NCBI GenBank assembly: GCA_016200005.1 | Contig: JACQFP010000026.1 | Span: 124,001-188,000, forward strand | Reading direction: 5' to 3' | DNA length: 64,000 bases | Origin: Verrucomicrobiota bacterium | Lineage (GTDB): Bacteria; Verrucomicrobiota; Verrucomicrobiia; Limisphaerales; PALSA-1396 | In this document: one piece after another, positions 6,057-17,316 of the stretch | How positions within the stretch are numbered: the stretch's first letter is position 1 | How the letters are laid out: each line of letters opens with the position of its first letter | Notes under the pieces: model-generated | The model's input: only the letters and a program-made list of their open reading frames with translations | What the model was told of the DNA's origin: nothing | Database searches by the model: none | Position numbers and translations under genes: made by a program

Positions 6057-9020
6057 TCAATTCTTCGCGGACTTAAGCTTGTTGGCCGGGTTGACGCCGC
6101 GCACAACTTCGCCTTGGGTGATCGCGGTGACATAGGCGCGCGGATTCATGTCCGCCGGCGCGTCGCAACTGATTGTGATTCGATTCACGCCTGCTTCCAA
6201 CATCGGCACTCCGCCTTGCGGTTTCACTTCGGCCAGTAGTTCGCCGGTCGGGCCATACAGTTTGCAATCGGCCGGCGACCGGAGTTCGAGGTAGGAACCG
6301 CTTTCCATTTCCACCGGGAAAACGATGGTCTGCCCGCCAATCGTCAGCGACGGATTGCGCCACTTGGCTTTGATGGTGGGCAACGCGCGGACCGGACTGA
6401 GATGGCACGTCACCGAATCGTTTGGCGGCAGGTTGTTGTAAAACAGGTTCAAGCTGGAAATCGCCGAGGGGTGAATCGACTCGCGATAGATGGAATACGC
6501 GTCGCCGTAAGGCCAGATGTAATCCGTGAACCGCTGCGCCTCCGGCTCGATCAATTCGAAATACCGCCAGCCGGTGAAATCAACCACGATGTAGTTGTCC
6601 GCAATGCCGCTGAACAGATGCGCGGGGCTGTTGAGTTGGAGGTTCAGCGTCTCGCCTTTGCCATCGCCATGCACCCAGACTCCCAACGCTTCGTGTCCGG
6701 TCAGCTTGAGGGACGGGTCAAAAGTTCTTCCGGCCTTGGCCCAGGCGCCGCGGCGATTGGAGGTCGCATTGGTGGCGCTAAACCGACCGCTGGCGGCGCC
6801 GGATTTCAGCGGCTCCTTCACCGAGTCGATTTTGTGGGTGACGCCGGTTTGATCAGCCGAGTCGGAAAAGTCCTTTGCGCCACGAAAATCTGCAACGCTG
6901 ATGTTGTTCGACGCTTCGTAAGGTCCGGCGGACATAAGCGCCTCGATGCGCAATTGAAGCGGCTGCCGCACGAACTTGTTCGTGATAGACCACGAGTTGC
7001 TCCAACCGTCCAGTCCTTCCACTTTGTGACGGTCGTATTGCGCGCGACGGAACTGCCATTCGCCTTCGGCACTTTGGAACAGCGTGAATTCATCGCCGGG
7101 CGCGCGCAGTCTGGCTTTGACCGCTTCGGAAAAATAGTTCGCGTGGCGCAGGGTTTCGTATTGCCGCATGATCGTCGCGAGGCGTGGGTAGGCGGGAATC
7201 TTTTTGATGTTCGCGGGATCGACGCCCATGAGCGCGAAGCCGGTGTCCGTGCCGAGACATTTGCACATCAGATATTCGATGTCGTCGGCGAAGGTCGGTT
7301 CACCTTGCGGGCCGCTCCAGGTTTTGACCGACCACCAGCCGAGTTGGCCCGGCAAAAACATCCGGCGATTGTCCTCGTTGGCGGCGACGTGCGTATCGAT
7401 GAATTTCTTGTGAGCGCGGCGCGGATGGTCCCAAGCGCCCATGCGCGCGCGCACAAACCAGAGATGATGGCTGAAGGTGCTCATCTCCATCATCGCCGGT
7501 TTCTTGAGTCGCTTCCAAATCTCGAACGTGAACTTGGACTGATAATGCCAGGCATTCTCTCCACCGCCCACGATGTCGGAGCCGTCGAGCGCGTCCAGAT
7601 AGATCATGTCGAACCCGCCCGCGTTGAATGCCTCAGCGGTTTTGGCGGCGACCTCGGTGTAGAGCGTCGAATCGCCGTCCGGCACGAACAACCCGAAACA
7701 TTCCTTGAGATGATGCACCTTCGCACCTTGGGCGTGCAACGCGACGCGTGTGCCGTTCGCGCCGCGTTTGCAACCCGTGAATGCAAACGGCGGCTCTTTG
7801 GCGACGCCGGTGTAAGTAATCAGTTCGTCGTCGATTTGCAGCGTCACACTGTTGCGCACTGCGAAGCCAGTGATTGCGGACATGGCTTTGGTGGATTCGA
7901 CAACGGGAACGTTCGTTGAGTCGGTGGTCAACGGTTCTGCCAGCGAGAAGGTGGCGTCCTTGCCGAGGCGCGGATCGGGCACGGGCGTGACCCACGGTGT
8001 GCGTTTGTCGATGAACTGTGCGTAGGTGTGAAGTCCGGCTTGCAGTCCGGCGGCGTGCAGTTTGTCGATAACCGCTTTGAAACTCGCCCAGCCGTTCGTG
8101 TAAGTTTTCGGGTTGGGCAGACAATCGCCGAAGCGGAACGAATTGCCGCCGTGGAAATCGATCTGGGTAATTCCCAGGCTGCGCGCCAGTTTGATCCAGT
8201 CGTCCACCTTGTCTTCCGACATGTCGCCGAAGTTGAAGAGGTACGAGCCGCGATTTTTTTCCGAGTCCAGCGCCCACGGCCCACCGATCGGCGAATGTGG
8301 CAGGTCGGGCGCCGCGCTCACCACTTCCTGCAAGACTCGGCGCAGCTCCTTTGGCGGACAGCCGATCACTGCCACCCGCGCGCCTGTCAAACCGAAACGC
8401 GGATAGCACGCCGCCCAAAGCTGGTGGCTGGCACCGGGAATATCGCGAACGTTTGTCTGAAGATTCAACGCCACGGCGCAGCCGGCGAAAGGTTCGTTGG
8501 GAGTTCCTTTGAGCGTGAGCGGCAGGTCGGTAAAGACCAGTTCCTCCACACCGTCGCCGCGAACGTCGGTTACTTCGAAGACGAAATATTGCTTCTTGGA
8601 CGTGACTTTGAGCGTGGCCGTCACCCCGGCATCGCCGAACTCCACAGCCAGCTTGCCGCCAGAGTAAGACGCGGACGCGGCTGCGAACAGGCGGCCCGAT
8701 TTTTTCACGGACGCAAACGGCGCGGGTGGATTTGTGGCGCAGTAGTCTTTGCCCGTGGCACGGTCGATAAAGTGGAGATTGCGACCGTCGGCACCGAGTT
8801 CATAACGCACGTAACGGTTTTGGAGAGTCAGAGCCGGCTTGGAATGCTGCGGCGCGGCGCCGAGCAGTTGAACGCTGGTGAGCAGGAACAAGGACTGCCA
8901 AAATAGACAATGTAGCCGCCAACGTAAGGGGGCGGATTCTTGAGCGCACGCATTTTCCGCCTCCTCACGTCGGCGGCTACAAATTCGGCGGTTACGAAAC
9001 GCTTTGTGGCGAGAGTTCAT
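6057..9020 (-). CDS. Large secreted TIM-barrel-like protein, possible glycoside hydrolase
   Basis: A 987-residue frame. About residues 42-57 form a hydrophobic signal-peptide-like stretch (LFLLTSVQLLGAA). A beta-rich domain follows to about 250, then segments resembling a (beta/alpha)8 barrel: GITQIDFHGG near 287, GLQAGLHTYAQF near 330, GFDMIYLDALDG near 480, KPAMMEMSTF near 520. A C-terminal beta-sandwich-like part follows. Acidic residues after predicted strands resemble glycosidases of the melibiase/amylase type, but no family was firmly recognised. The first about 35 residues, before the hydrophobic stretch, are largely encoded by a palindromic repeat (8911-8981) and no Shine-Dalgarno is visible, so the true start is uncertain. 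It reads alone, convergent with the repeat-rich gap on its left. Confidence 0.7.
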   Translation of the reverse strand: MNSRHKAFRNRRICSRRREEAENACAQESAPLRWRLHCLFWQSLFLLTSVQLLGAAPQHSKPALTLQNRYVRYELGADGRNLHFIDRATGKDYCATNPPAPFASVKKSGRLFAAASASYSGGKLAVEFGDAGVTATLKVTSKKQYFVFEVTDVRGDGVEELVFTDLPLTLKGTPNEPFAGCAVALNLQTNVRDIPGASHQLWAACYPRFGLTGARVAVIGCPPKELRRVLQEVVSAAPDLPHSPIGGPWALDSEKNRGSYLFNFGDMSEDKVDDWIKLARSLGITQIDFHGGNSFRFGDCLPNPKTYTNGWASFKAVIDKLHAAGLQAGLHTYAQFIDKRTPWVTPVPDPRLGKDATFSLAEPLTTDSTNVPVVESTKAMSAITGFAVRNSVTLQIDDELITYTGVAKEPPFAFTGCKRGANGTRVALHAQGAKVHHLKECFGLFVPDGDSTLYTEVAAKTAEAFNAGGFDMIYLDALDGSDIVGGGENAWHYQSKFTFEIWKRLKKPAMMEMSTFSHHLWFVRARMGAWDHPRRAHKKFIDTHVAANEDNRRMFLPGQLGWWSVKTWSGPQGEPTFADDIEYLMCKCLGTDTGFALMGVDPANIKKIPAYPRLATIMRQYETLRHANYFSEAVKARLRAPGDEFTLFQSAEGEWQFRRAQYDRHKVEGLDGWSNSWSITNKFVRQPLQLRIEALMSAGPYEASNNISVADFRGAKDFSDSADQTGVTHKIDSVKEPLKSGAASGRFSATNATSNRRGAWAKAGRTFDPSLKLTGHEALGVWVHGDGKGETLNLQLNSPAHLFSGIADNYIVVDFTGWRYFELIEPEAQRFTDYIWPYGDAYSIYRESIHPSAISSLNLFYNNLPPNDSVTCHLSPVRALPTIKAKWRNPSLTIGGQTIVFPVEMESGSYLELRSPADCKLYGPTGELLAEVKPQGGVPMLEAGVNRITISCDAPADMNPRAYVTAITQGEVVRGVNPANKLKSAKN
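8911..8981. repeat. Palindromic repeat (GTAGCCGCC..ACGT..GAGGCGG family) inside a 5' coding region
   Basis: TGTAGCCGCCAACGT is answered by ACGTCGGCGGCTACA about 45 nt later, with a GGGGGCGGA/TCCGCCTCC inner stem. The same family occurs at 59118-59199 (GTAGCAGCCGACGTGAGGAG) and as a half copy at 14533-14574. Here it is translated as part of the N-terminus of the 987-residue protein, if the start at 9020 is correct. Confidence 0.75.
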
Positions 9021-13452: not shown

Positions 13453-15384
13453 TCAAGGCTCTCGCTTCGTAGCCAAACGTGCCACGGCTTGCTTGACCAC
13501 CCAGCCTGATTTTTCCAGCGCGCTTTTCGCCGTCGCTTGATCGACCCCGCGCAGTTCCTGCACAATCCGCATGGCGCGGTCGCGGAGTTTCACATTGGAA
13601 GGATTCAAATCCACCATCAAGTTGCCCACCACCTTGCCGAGGCGCACCATCGCCAGCGTGGAAAAAATGTTCAGGATGAGTTTGGTGGCGGTGCCGGCCT
13701 TCAAGCGCGTCGAGCCGGTCAGGATTTCCGGCCCGACATCTGGAGTGATAACCAAGCTGGGTCGGTGCCCCCGCGGAATCTTCAAAAAGGGATTGAACGC
13801 CAGCAGGATGGTGGTGGCGCCGCGCCGTTTCGCCGCTTCCAATCCGCCCCACACAAATGGCGTTCTGCCGCTGGCGGCGATGCCCACGACGACATCCCGG
13901 CGCCCGACGCCGCGAAACTCAATCGCCCGCGCCCCGGCTTCGCGATCATCCTCCGCGCCTTCGACCGATTTCCACAGCGCGGTCTGCCCGCCGGCCATGA
14001 TCGCTTGAACCATTTCGGGCGACGTTCGAAACGTGGGCGGACATTCAGTGGCGTCCAGCACGCCCAGTCGTCCGCTCGTGCCGGCGCCGACGTAAAACAA
14101 CCGTCCACCCCGTCTAAACGCCTGTGAAATTAATCTGACGGCGCGCTCGATCTTTTTGCTCTCGTTCAACAACGCCCCGGTAATTTTTGCGTCCTCTGAA
14201 AGCATCAGCGCTATGGCTCTGGACAAGGGCAGCTTGTCCAAATTCATCGAACGCGGATTGCGCTGCTCAGTAGGTGAGCGTTTCAGCGACTCGAGGTCGC
14301 GCGCCGTCGTTGGAGTCCAAGCTTTAGCTTGTTGGCCGGAATCAGAGGCAACGCCCGAACAAGCTGAAGCTTGAACTCCAACTTGTCGTGCCAGCTCGAC
14401 CGCGCCCCACACGCTCTCGCGTTGCAACGGCGTGATGACCGCTCCGGGCCAGCGTTGGCGTAACTCATCGCTGACTCGCGCCGCGAAACGCGGTTGCTTG
14501 AGGAGGACACTGCCCGCCAGAATAAATTCCACACGACCTGGTCGCCGCCGCCGTGAGGAGGCGGACCTGGTCAATCGGCGCGCACACGCAATCGCGTCCT
14601 GCGCCAGACTGTGCGACGCGCCTTTGAGAATGTCCGTGGCAATTTGATCCCGCTTTCGCCACGCGGCAAATACGTCCATGGCCAGACCGGCGACTTCAGT
14701 CTTGCTCGCGGATTGCGCCCAGCCAATCAAATCCTCTGGATCGCTGAGTTGAAGCGAGCGCAATATCCTTTGGCCGAGCGGAGACCATTCGCCATCGCGA
14801 TCGTAGTAATAGACCACCGCCTTCAATGCGCGCAGCCCGATCTCAAACCCACTCCCCTTGTCGCCGAGGATATGGCCCCAGCCGCCAACCTTGGCGGTCG
14901 TGCCGGATGAATTGCGCCCATAGCAACACGAGCCGGTGCCGCTCAAAACCAAGACCTGGAGAACTGAGGCTTGGCGAATAACGAATGACGAATGGCGTCG
15001 CGAATTTCTGTCAACATTCTGCCTTTTGCATTCGTCAGTCTGCATTCGCCCTGCGACCAGTGCCGTCTCCAAGTCATTGGTCGCGTGGCAGGGAATGCGC
15101 GGCCAGACTTTGGCGGCGGCATTGCGGATTCGGTCCCAATCTGTTTTCGTCCGCGCGCCGGCCATGCCGATGGCGAGTGCGGCGGGAGGGGGAAACGCTT
15201 TGGCGATAAATCGCAAACGGCGGAGCAGTTGCGCATCCGTGAACAACCGCAGGTTCGCTGCTTCCGCCTCGATTCTTTTCAGCAGCCGGTCTTCGGCATC
15301 GGCTAATAGTGCGACCGAGCGCGTGCCGCCACATTCGATCCCCAGAAACGAGGCTGACGCGGGCGGTTTAAGCGGTTTGTTCAC
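13453..15384 (-). CDS. Fusion: BadF-type GlcNAc/MurNAc kinase plus MurNAc-6-phosphate etherase (MurQ)
   Basis: A 643-residue protein joining two recycling steps. Residues about 12-335 are an ASKHA sugar kinase of the BadF/MurK type (phosphate loop GIECGGTRSVALL, then LSGTGSCCYGR and GGWGHILGDKGSG). About 385-643 are MurQ (GAGTSGRLGVLDATECPP with the general-acid Glu, VEGAEDDREAG, GIAASGRTPFV, GSTRLKAGTATK). It would phosphorylate MurNAc (and perhaps GlcNAc) and then remove the lactyl ether from MurNAc-6P in the cytoplasm, salvaging peptidoglycan. Three stretches look foreign to both families and coincide with DNA repeats: residues about 112-143, 271-284 and 335-362, the last being the interdomain linker. 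All keep the frame. Some lineages keep these enzymes as separate genes. Confidence 0.88.
   Translation of the reverse strand: MNKPLKPPASASFLGIECGGTRSVALLADAEDRLLKRIEAEAANLRLFTDAQLLRRLRFIAKAFPPPAALAIGMAGARTKTDWDRIRNAAAKVWPRIPCHATNDLETALVAGRMQTDECKRQNVDRNSRRHSSFVIRQASVLQVLVLSGTGSCCYGRNSSGTTAKVGGWGHILGDKGSGFEIGLRALKAVVYYYDRDGEWSPLGQRILRSLQLSDPEDLIGWAQSASKTEVAGLAMDVFAAWRKRDQIATDILKGASHSLAQDAIACARRLTRSASSRRRRPGRVEFILAGSVLLKQPRFAARVSDELRQRWPGAVITPLQRESVWGAVELARQVGVQASACSGVASDSGQQAKAWTPTTARDLESLKRSPTEQRNPRSMNLDKLPLSRAIALMLSEDAKITGALLNESKKIERAVRLISQAFRRGGRLFYVGAGTSGRLGVLDATECPPTFRTSPEMVQAIMAGGQTALWKSVEGAEDDREAGARAIEFRGVGRRDVVVGIAASGRTPFVWGGLEAAKRRGATTILLAFNPFLKIPRGHRPSLVITPDVGPEILTGSTRLKAGTATKLILNIFSTLAMVRLGKVVGNLMVDLNPSNVKLRDRAMRIVQELRGVDQATAKSALEKSGWVVKQAVARLATKREP
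14309..14382. repeat. Palindromic GTTGGAGTTCAAGC element, in frame in the kinase-MurQ linker
   Basis: GTTGGAGTCCAAGCTTTAGC is answered by GCTGAAGCTTGAACTCCAAC, with a spacer of about 34 nt. Minus-strand translation gives GVQASACSG...QQAKAWTP. Other copies lie at 15734-15797 (intergenic) and 16915-16969 (inside mnmE). Confidence 0.85.
14533..14574. repeat. In-frame CGCCGCC-GTGAGGAGGCGG repeat in the kinase domain
   Basis: About 42 bp (14 codons) with a GACCTGGTC direct repeat at both ends flanking CGCCGCCGCCGTGAGGAGGC, which resembles the palindromes at 8911-8981 and 59118-59199. It encodes LTRSASSRRRRPGR, a very basic loop just before a core strand of the kinase fold. Confidence 0.7.
14956..15051. 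repeat. In-frame ATTCGTCATTCGTTATTCG-type repeat in the kinase domain
   Basis: About 96 bp. On the minus strand, GCAGACTGACGAATGCAAAA opens the segment and CCATTCGTCATTCGTTATTC closes it. CATTCG/CGAATG units recur on both strands, so it can fold on itself. It encodes about 32 residues between the ALVAG and VLSGTGSC segments of the kinase, where related kinases have only a short turn. Confidence 0.7.
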
Positions 15385-15733: not shown

Positions 15734-15843
15734 CGGCTGGAGTTCACGCTTTAGCGTGCGCGCGTCGCTCACAGCCTGAAGGCTCAACTCCAACCGGCGT
15801 GGACCACTTGCAACTTGTAACTTTCAACCTGTAACTTTCACCC
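15734..15843. repeat. Intergenic GGAGTTCA palindrome plus AACTTGTAACTTTC tandem repeat before mnmE
   Basis: 15734-15797 is another member of the palindromic family seen in mnmE and kinase-MurQ (GGCTGGAGTTCACGCTTTAG ... CTGAAGGCTCAACTCCAACC). Right after it, 15805-15840 holds two to three copies of an ACTTGTAACTTTCA-like unit directly upstream of the mnmE ATG, possibly affecting translation initiation. No clear Shine-Dalgarno is visible there. Confidence 0.75.
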
Positions 15844-17316
15844 ATGCTCGACGACACCATCGCCGCCATCGCCACACCGCTCGGAGAAGGCGGATTGGCC
15901 GTGATTCGTCTTTCCGGCCCGCAAGCGCTCGCGGTCGCGGACCAGTGTTTTGTTCCCGTCGGCAAGTCTTCGCTGAAACCATCCAGCGCGCCGACGCACA
16001 CGATTCAATACGGCAAAATCGTGCGTCATGATCGCACGGTCGATGAGGTGTTGGTCGCCGTCCTGCGCGCGCCGCGCACGTTTACGCGCGAAGACGCGGT
16101 GGAAATCACCTGCCACGGCGGGTTGCTGCCGGCGAAGCTGGTGTTGGACACCGTCCTGGAAAACGGGGCGCGGCTCGCAGAGCCGGGCGAGTTCACGCGC
16201 CGCGCTTTTCTCAACGGGCGGCTCGACTTGACGCAGGCGGAAGCCGTCGCCGACCTGATTCAGTCGCGCACGGAACTGGCACTCGCCGCCGCCAACGAAC
16301 AACTCGCCGGCAAACTTTCGCAGCGCATCAACCAGCTTCGCGATGACATGATGAAAATCCTGGCGCACGTGGAGGCGCACATTGATTTTCCCGACGAAGA
16401 CATTTCGCCTGACACGAAGGAGCAATTGCTCGCCCGGCTGGAACGTGGCGTGGCGTTCATGGACGAACTGTTGCGCACCGCGAACGAAGGGCAAATCCTG
16501 CGCCGCGGCATCCGCGCCGCGATTATCGGACGGCCCAACGCCGGCAAATCCAGTTTGCTCAATCAACTTCTCGGTCGCGACCGCGCCATCGTCTCGCCGA
16601 TTCCGGGCACGACGCGCGACACGATTGAAGAAACGGCGAACATCCGGGGACTGCCGGTGGTGTTCGTCGATACGGCGGGTCTGCGCGAAGCCGGCGATGA
16701 GATCGAAGTCGAAGGGATTCGCCGGAGCCGTCAATCACTGGCCCAGGCCGAATTCATTCTGCATGTCCTTGATGCATCCGAGCCTTTGACGCCGGCAGAT
16801 GAAGATTATCTGGTCGAGTTTACAGCCAAGAAAGGAATTCTCGTGCGGAACAAAATTGATTTACCGATAAAGCTTAGCATGGAAGATTTGGAGCGCCGAG
16901 CACCGACCCGAGGAGCTGGAGTTCAGGCTTTAGTCTGTCCGCCGAACAAGCTGAAGCTTGAACTCCAACCCGACCAACGCGCCGAGACGGTGCCCGGCAC
17001 TCCAATCGTGGACGTGAGTTGCATCACGGGGCAGGGGATAGAGGCGTTGAAAGACGCCATCAAGAATTTGGTCTGGGCGGGTGAAATCCGAATGGAGATG
17101 TTGGCGGTGATGATCAACTCGCGTCATCAGGACGCGCTGAACCGCGCGCGAACGGCGACCCGTCTCACCATCGAGTCACTCCGCCAGGACCGCACGCTGG
17201 AACTCGTGGCGTTGGATTTGCGGATTGCCGTCAATGCCGTCGGTGAAATCGTCGGCAAGACCACGACGGAGGATTTGCTCGACTCCATCTTCAGCCAGTT
17301 TTGTCTGGGGAAATGA
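15844..17316 (+). CDS. mnmE: tRNA uridine-34 modification GTPase MnmE (with in-frame repeat)
   Basis: A 490-residue protein; with MnmG it installs (carboxymethyl)aminomethyl groups on wobble uridine 34. The folate-binding N-domain starts DDTIAAIATPLGEGGLAVIR. The G domain shows GRPNAGKS (229-236), PGTTRD, DTAG (276-279) and NKID (336-339). The protein ends FCLGK, retaining the catalytic Cys of the C-terminal CxGK motif. Residues about 358-376 (RGAGVQALVCPPNKLKLELQ) are not family sequence: they are encoded by the palindromic element at 16915-16969, inserted between G4 and the SCITG (G5) strand. The length is slightly above the usual about 455 residues, in agreement. Confidence 0.95.
   Translation: MLDDTIAAIATPLGEGGLAVIRLSGPQALAVADQCFVPVGKSSLKPSSAPTHTIQYGKIVRHDRTVDEVLVAVLRAPRTFTREDAVEITCHGGLLPAKLVLDTVLENGARLAEPGEFTRRAFLNGRLDLTQAEAVADLIQSRTELALAAANEQLAGKLSQRINQLRDDMMKILAHVEAHIDFPDEDISPDTKEQLLARLERGVAFMDELLRTANEGQILRRGIRAAIIGRPNAGKSSLLNQLLGRDRAIVSPIPGTTRDTIEETANIRGLPVVFVDTAGLREAGDEIEVEGIRRSRQSLAQAEFILHVLDASEPLTPADEDYLVEFTAKKGILVRNKIDLPIKLSMEDLERRAPTRGAGVQALVCPPNKLKLELQPDQRAETVPGTPIVDVSCITGQGIEALKDAIKNLVWAGEIRMEMLAVMINSRHQDALNRARTATRLTIESLRQDRTLELVALDLRIAVNAVGEIVGKTTTEDLLDSIFSQFCLGK
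16915..16969. repeat. Palindromic GGAGTTCAAGC element inserted in frame in mnmE
   Basis: GCTGGAGTTCAGGCTTTAGT is answered by CAAGCTGAAGCTTGAACTCC, with a spacer of about 15 nt. The reading frame crosses it without a stop. Same family as 14309-14382 and 15734-15797, all within 2.7 kb. Confidence 0.85.

Follow-up and report, generated by a model that had tools for sequence, protein, structure and literature searches.

In-frame palindromes in mnmE and other genes of a Verrucomicrobiota bacterium are very probably REPINs of a GGAG-headed family with a candidate RAYT

The stretch of DNA analyzed here (the window; 64,000 nucleotides of Verrucomicrobiota bacterium GCA_016200005.1, to which plain coordinates refer) contains two genes that host palindromes. 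The tRNA modification GTPase gene mnmE (15844-17316, + strand) encodes 490 amino acids with matches to MnmE_helical, TrmE_N and MMR_HSR1, and a gene on the other strand (13453-15384, -) encodes a BadF-type kinase fused to a MurQ/GKRP-like protein, a fusion that also occurs in relatives. In mnmE, we found an inverted doublet of REP units (16915-16969, +; 55 nt, GCTGGAG...CTCCAAC) composed of two 20-nt hairpin units (16918-16937, +; 16947-16966, -). The sequence and the 490-aa ORF agree with the initial annotation, which had described a 55-bp palindrome that is read in frame and adds about 18 residues between the G4 and G5 motifs; the residues it encodes are 358-376 (AGVQALVCPPNKLKLELQP). The unit pattern also matches at the two other places where the same family had been reported: the kinase-MurQ linker (14309-14382, -; 74 nt, in frame; units 14312-14331, +, and 14360-14379, -) and the spacer before mnmE, where we place the limits of the copy at 15736-15794 instead of 15734-15797 (59 nt, no strand assigned; unit 15739-15758, +, exact; second unit, -, degenerate with 3 mismatches). 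With up to 3 mismatches, the REP unit pattern occurs at 5 places in the window as compared to 0.01 expected, and 0 of 100 shuffles reach 5. When folding was compared to 200 shuffles, the spacer palindrome folded no better than many of them (z -1.6, 17/200 as good), and the other two palindromes had z values of -3.6 and -6.0 with 0/200 shuffles as good. The kinase-MurQ palindrome is missing from the 12 relatives in the alignment (13 loci were fetched, and L420 fell out), and we found no REP unit in the 13 fetched loci. The kinase gene also holds a second inverted repeat in frame (14973-15050; GRMQTDECKRQ...SSFVIRQ); at this site, genome G025 carries a comparable insertion and most aligned relatives are shorter.

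The expectation that the palindrome has further genomic copies was borne out when we searched the whole genome (6.54 Mb, 87 contigs, 96% complete). There are 129 exact units (0 in the reversed control) and 225 units with up to 2 mismatches (1 in the control). Each unit consists of the head GGAG, then TT, then a 6-bp hairpin with the layout CA-N-GCT / TY / AGC-N'-TG. The free positions 9 and 18 pair in 128 of the 129 exact units (A-T 80, C-G 46, G-C 2 and one C-A), as compared to 66.4 expected under independence, and the neighboring stem pair also switches (G-C 156, C-G 28 in the 191 units that have up to 3 mismatches). Because these paired positions covary, the REP stem has been maintained through compensating changes. 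The element has sharp borders, with G at position -3 in 138 of 142 ends and a mixed position -4, and is bounded by GTTGGAG and CTCCAAC. One copy is nested within a REPIN of the GGAGCGCGGACA family (L022 1444-1552, which is G000:C22:140944-141051); it spans GTTGGAG to CTCCAAC and is thus independent evidence for the element ends, and the nesting also gives the relative age of both families. Two sub-threshold Rfam microRNA matches on the palindrome were taken as chance.

We fetched the sequence around all 129 exact units, a procedure that overlooks doublets elsewhere if both units are degenerate, and sorted the 199 units with up to 4 mismatches into 106 groups: 71 '+-' doublets with heads outward, 19 '-+' pairs, 1 '+-+-' group and 15 single units. 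Doublets are 52-91 nt long, and target duplications of 1-8 nt show no excess over expectation at the ends of the 71 doublets. The tail-out '-+' pairs appear to form a composite repeat class (for example L018, C22:26526, and L078, C33:51839), and 13 (counted by eye) of the 18 that were aligned share outer arms near GGGCTATGCACTTGATTCCCCTTG, which makes a longer palindrome of about 145 nt.

To count copies that are read as protein, we used 97 of these groups, after removing 9 in which even the best unit exceeded 2 mismatches, and called a copy in frame from open reading frames together with a codon score for which 27 window ORFs were the training set, with no gene finder. The strict score places 17 of 71 '+-' doublets in frame within coding ORFs, as compared to 0/18 '-+' pairs and 0/8 of the other groups; one further '+-' doublet lies between coding stretches and has stops inside the element. 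The relaxed score gives 18 in-frame '+-' doublets, and the total is 19/71 once the kinase-MurQ copy is added, which the score missed and the alignment supports. Besides mnmE and kinase-MurQ there are 17 host genes, whose Pfam matches are CysS, MmgE/PrpD, DUF58, Methyltransf_30, an acyl transferase (presumably FabD-like), a PSD-domain protein, a helicase with UvrB-interaction and CarD domains (which we take to be Mfd-like), sigma-70 region 2, squalene/phytoene synthase, SelA, class I/II and class III aminotransferases, RhaT, the tRNA U5 methyltransferase family, the exonuclease VII large subunit and M19 dipeptidase; one host has no match at 1e-8.

Comparison with relatives indicates that these copies were inserted into conserved genes. 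For 17/17 of the other host genes, the palindrome is missing in the match from G025 or G047. By eye, the relative is at least 10 residues shorter at the site in 11/17 hosts, and in the remaining 6/17 there is a smaller length difference or an unrelated loop sequence; for two sigma-factor sites (C2, C6), orthology is uncertain with 48% matches. Among 30 relative loci of the hosts, only L230 contains units, two degenerate ones outside the matched stretch. The insertion sites are loops that vary in length or sequence among relatives. The lengths of 18 in-frame elements modulo 3 are 1 (11 elements), 0 (5) and 2 (2); 13/18 are therefore not multiples of three, and each such insertion must also have altered its target by a base or two. 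The peptide motifs GVQASAC and KLKLELQ recur among the in-frame copies. We found no support for a repeat designed for coding: its reading frames are stop-free in 31% of cases as compared to 39% in shuffled copies. From the stop codons of the doublet and a one-in-three chance that the frame is restored, about 10% of random genic insertions are predicted to be readable, so the 19 in-frame survivors fit the loss of many other insertions.

As the initial annotation had anticipated, the insertion in mnmE can be demonstrated by alignment. We searched 57 relatives and fetched 30 mnmE loci including that of the genome itself; residues 358-376 of MnmE are missing from 29/29 relatives, and their mnmE genes contain no unit with up to 3 mismatches (one 3-mismatch site in L055 is outside the gene). 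The G4-G5 loop has 57 residues here, 54 in G025 and 54 in G047, and 20-25 in 21 of 26 measurable relatives; the lineage has a long loop even where the element is missing. In two of the 29 relatives, L050 (G056) and L052 (G017), mnmE breaks off in the G4-G5 loop, at a stop and at a contig end, respectively; we regard these breaks as a further sign that the loop is unstable. The same loop in G025, which belongs to the same genus, carries a different inverted pair, GGGGCGCGGACA...TGTCCGCG with a GGAG-headed partner, and thus the loop has taken different REPIN families in two congeners. This second family has 7 exact units in G025, including the one in the loop (C393:1202), and two of its units flank a G025 RAYT on C143. 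In the genome studied here, 7/20 doublets of the second family are in frame by the relaxed score, several of them weakly supported.

A gene of 201 amino acids that resembles a RAYT (G000:C46:117811-118413; hereafter C46 RAYT) is flanked on both sides by REPINs of the window family, one before and two after, and has a thymidylate synthase (thyA) and a dihydrofolate reductase (folA) gene as neighbors, one on each side. We found the ORF (117985-118314) with a profile built from ten RAYTs that belong to GGAG-type loci within the order, one of them from the same genome (A1), and a self-search extended it to its present limits. NCBIfam REP_Tyr_transpos matches the protein with an E value of 1.6e-19 and 70.2 bits, below the curated cut-off of 80. 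The Pfam Y1_Tnp match is weak (E 0.024), and for that reason the gene was missed in our PF01797 search. The top PDB sequence match is 4er8 (TnpArep; 6.5e-4). A structure model built from 47 sequences has a pLDDT of 89.3 (an earlier, poor model with a pLDDT of 51.7 was set aside), and its nearest fold is again 4er8, in which a RAYT is in complex with a REP hairpin (3.4e-8 by Foldseek; Z 15.3 for 162 residues at 3.2 A, with the next row at Z 9.0). Thg1 and ribosomal S6 rows in the fold search were read as a common ferredoxin-like arrangement. H86, H88 and Y146 are invariant across the 47 sequences, which gives the protein the HxH motif and tyrosine of a Y1 HuH enzyme, and we take these three residues to be catalytic. 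Judged from sequence and gene context, the C46 RAYT is most likely the mobilizer of the window-family REPINs, and we propose GGAGTTCA as its cognate hairpin.

Other transposase genes were considered as well. The PF01797 search returned 4 genes in the same genome, which we rejected as mobilizers since none has a window-family unit nearby. One of the four, a RAYT on C43 (L131, G000:C43, ~6970-8970), is flanked by REPs of another family, CGGAGCGCGGCTGTGTC. In 18 relatives there were 120 PF01797 matches, of which 88 were covered by scanning 50 and 40 loci (L163 had no match, and L161 is the same as L221). Among these, the sole exact unit near a PF01797 match is in G110 (L162), beside a gene that reads by eye as an IS200-type tnpA, and was taken as a coincidence; 3-mismatch sites are found near PF01797 loci in L137, L140, L155 and L214. 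In L202 (G175:C279), the ORF of a RAYT gene itself holds several in-frame hairpins of the GGAGCGCCG type.

Gene and hairpin also appear to be paired in relatives. Order-wide, 43/293 genomes (this one included) have an exact window-type unit, and the C46 RAYT matches 139/293 genomes at E <= 0.001, many of the matches being remote. Among the RAYT loci covered (L302-L319 of the set L302-L331), hairpins of the same design lie on both sides of the gene at 13 of the 17 loci L303-L319, on one side at 3 (one of which ends at the gene) and on neither side at 1, with heads GGAG, GGTG or GTAG; reversed flanks gave 0. A search of named genomes, which overlaps with the 17-locus set, returned 80 RAYT loci, 70 of them with enough flank: hairpins lie on both sides at 42/70, on one side at 7 and on neither at 21, and reversed flanks again gave 0. 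The heads around these 70 loci are GGAG (115), GTAG (47), GGTG (26), GTTG (15) and others (5). The closest relative of the C46 RAYT (L332, 71% identity, from a Verrucomicrobia subdivision 3 MAG) shares the window REP, and by eye a thyA-like ORF precedes it. The nearest relative of the C46 RAYT in G025 (L316, G025:C299:33629-34223) is interrupted by TAA and has GGTG-headed hairpins on its flanks. The repeat family and the RAYT gene are not always found together: G009 has 28 exact units and 0 matches to the RAYT profile, G036 has 50 exact units and only weak profile matches (best 2.8e-14), none of them flanked by the window repeat, and 21/70 relatives have no hairpin.

From these data, we conclude that the palindromes are very probably RAYT-type REPINs, non-autonomous single-strand DNA transposons that would be moved by a RAYT, most likely the C46 gene. 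The initial annotation had likened their behavior to that of Rickettsia palindromic elements (RPEs). An element of the RPE type would be adapted to translation and would spread through in-frame insertion. What holds of that comparison is the behavior, a mobile palindrome read in frame in unrelated conserved genes, and the recurring GVQASAC and KLKLELQ motifs would also suit it. Identity with RPEs is not supported: these are GGAG REP doublets in a genome with a REP-flanked Y1-type RAYT, stop-free frames are not in surplus, most doublets (52/71) do not lie in frame within a gene, and published RPEs are about 150 bp (PMC10969869). We consider an RPE-like origin very unlikely, and we give still less credence to a miniature inverted-repeat element (MITE) of a DDE transposase. 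Inverted ends (GTTGGAG/CTCCAAC) and sharp borders would be expected of a MITE; however, target duplications of 1-8 nt do not rise above expectation across 71 doublets, the internal hairpins covary and the repeat is associated with a RAYT.

A further proposal, compatible with the REPIN explanation, is that an in-frame copy has been retained as a useful protein loop or mRNA hairpin. The good folding of the in-frame hairpins and the entry of different REPIN families into one MnmE loop in two congeners are in its favor; however, the host genes are unrelated, the sites are loops that already vary among relatives, and the survival of harmless insertions suffices to explain the pattern. We therefore regard such usefulness as improbable.

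RAYTs and REPINs are defined in PMC2817692 and PMC3116915, and the window family resembles these systems (see also PMC8266576) in its tetranucleotide head, its compensated hairpin, its inverted doublets and a RAYT flanked by two inverted units of its own. It is also mainly extragenic (52/71). Unlike usual REPINs, the head here is GGAG (in relatives also GGTG, GTAG and GTTG) instead of GTAG, and the in-frame share is high. In-frame REPs in Verrucomicrobiota are not new: according to PMC3733652, REPs occur inside ORFs in several species, GTAG ones most often in the verrucomicrobium Opitutus terrae, and intragenic singles and dimers, the latter encoding 20-30 residues, are found in this and other species, some in uvrA and DNA ligase. 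The present copies likewise lie within ORFs in the same phylum, but they belong to another family with another head, and here the residues could be shown to be missing from relatives and the likely cognate RAYT was found. GGAG is absent from the main text of that paper. RPEs (PMC10969869; RPE-4 and RPE-6 in PMC3733652) share palindromes in frame inside unrelated proteins; in contrast, they are about 150 bp with a conserved ORF (PMC10969869), whereas we see 52-91 nt doublets, a RAYT and no coding bias. In the literature searched, which left most subscription papers and supplements outside its scope, we found no report of the GGAG family or its RAYT clade. The GGAG REPINs add a new family to a known type of mobile repeat, one in which an unusually high proportion of copies is read as protein.

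In vitro, other RAYTs are reported to cleave REPs, and for one of these there is support for the head acting as a guide (PMC8266576). By a single-strand route, the C46 RAYT would bind a REP that has folded on one strand, the tetranucleotide head would help to select the cleavage site, and the RAYT would insert a copy at another site. We infer this route, the movement of these copies, now or in the past, by the C46 RAYT, their translation and their tolerance by the folded proteins. Most genic insertions would be lost; the survivors would be the ones that preserve the frame and lie in variable loops or linkers, which would explain an MnmE that is about 18 residues longer in its G4-G5 loop. More tentatively, REPINs may steadily supply this order with new protein loops, with independent families entering the same tolerant loops and one RAYT clade having switched heads (GGAG, GGTG, GTAG and GTTG) together with its hairpins and so changed its insertion sites.

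REPs are termed extragenic, yet 19/71 doublets in one genome are in frame, for example in CysS, SelA, exonuclease VII and MnmE. They amount to a natural experiment in the tolerance of protein loops for 18-25 foreign residues, in which the likely transposase can be named, and the RAYT-hairpin pairs with differing heads would allow the guide model of cleavage-site choice, as put forward in PMC8266576, to be tested.
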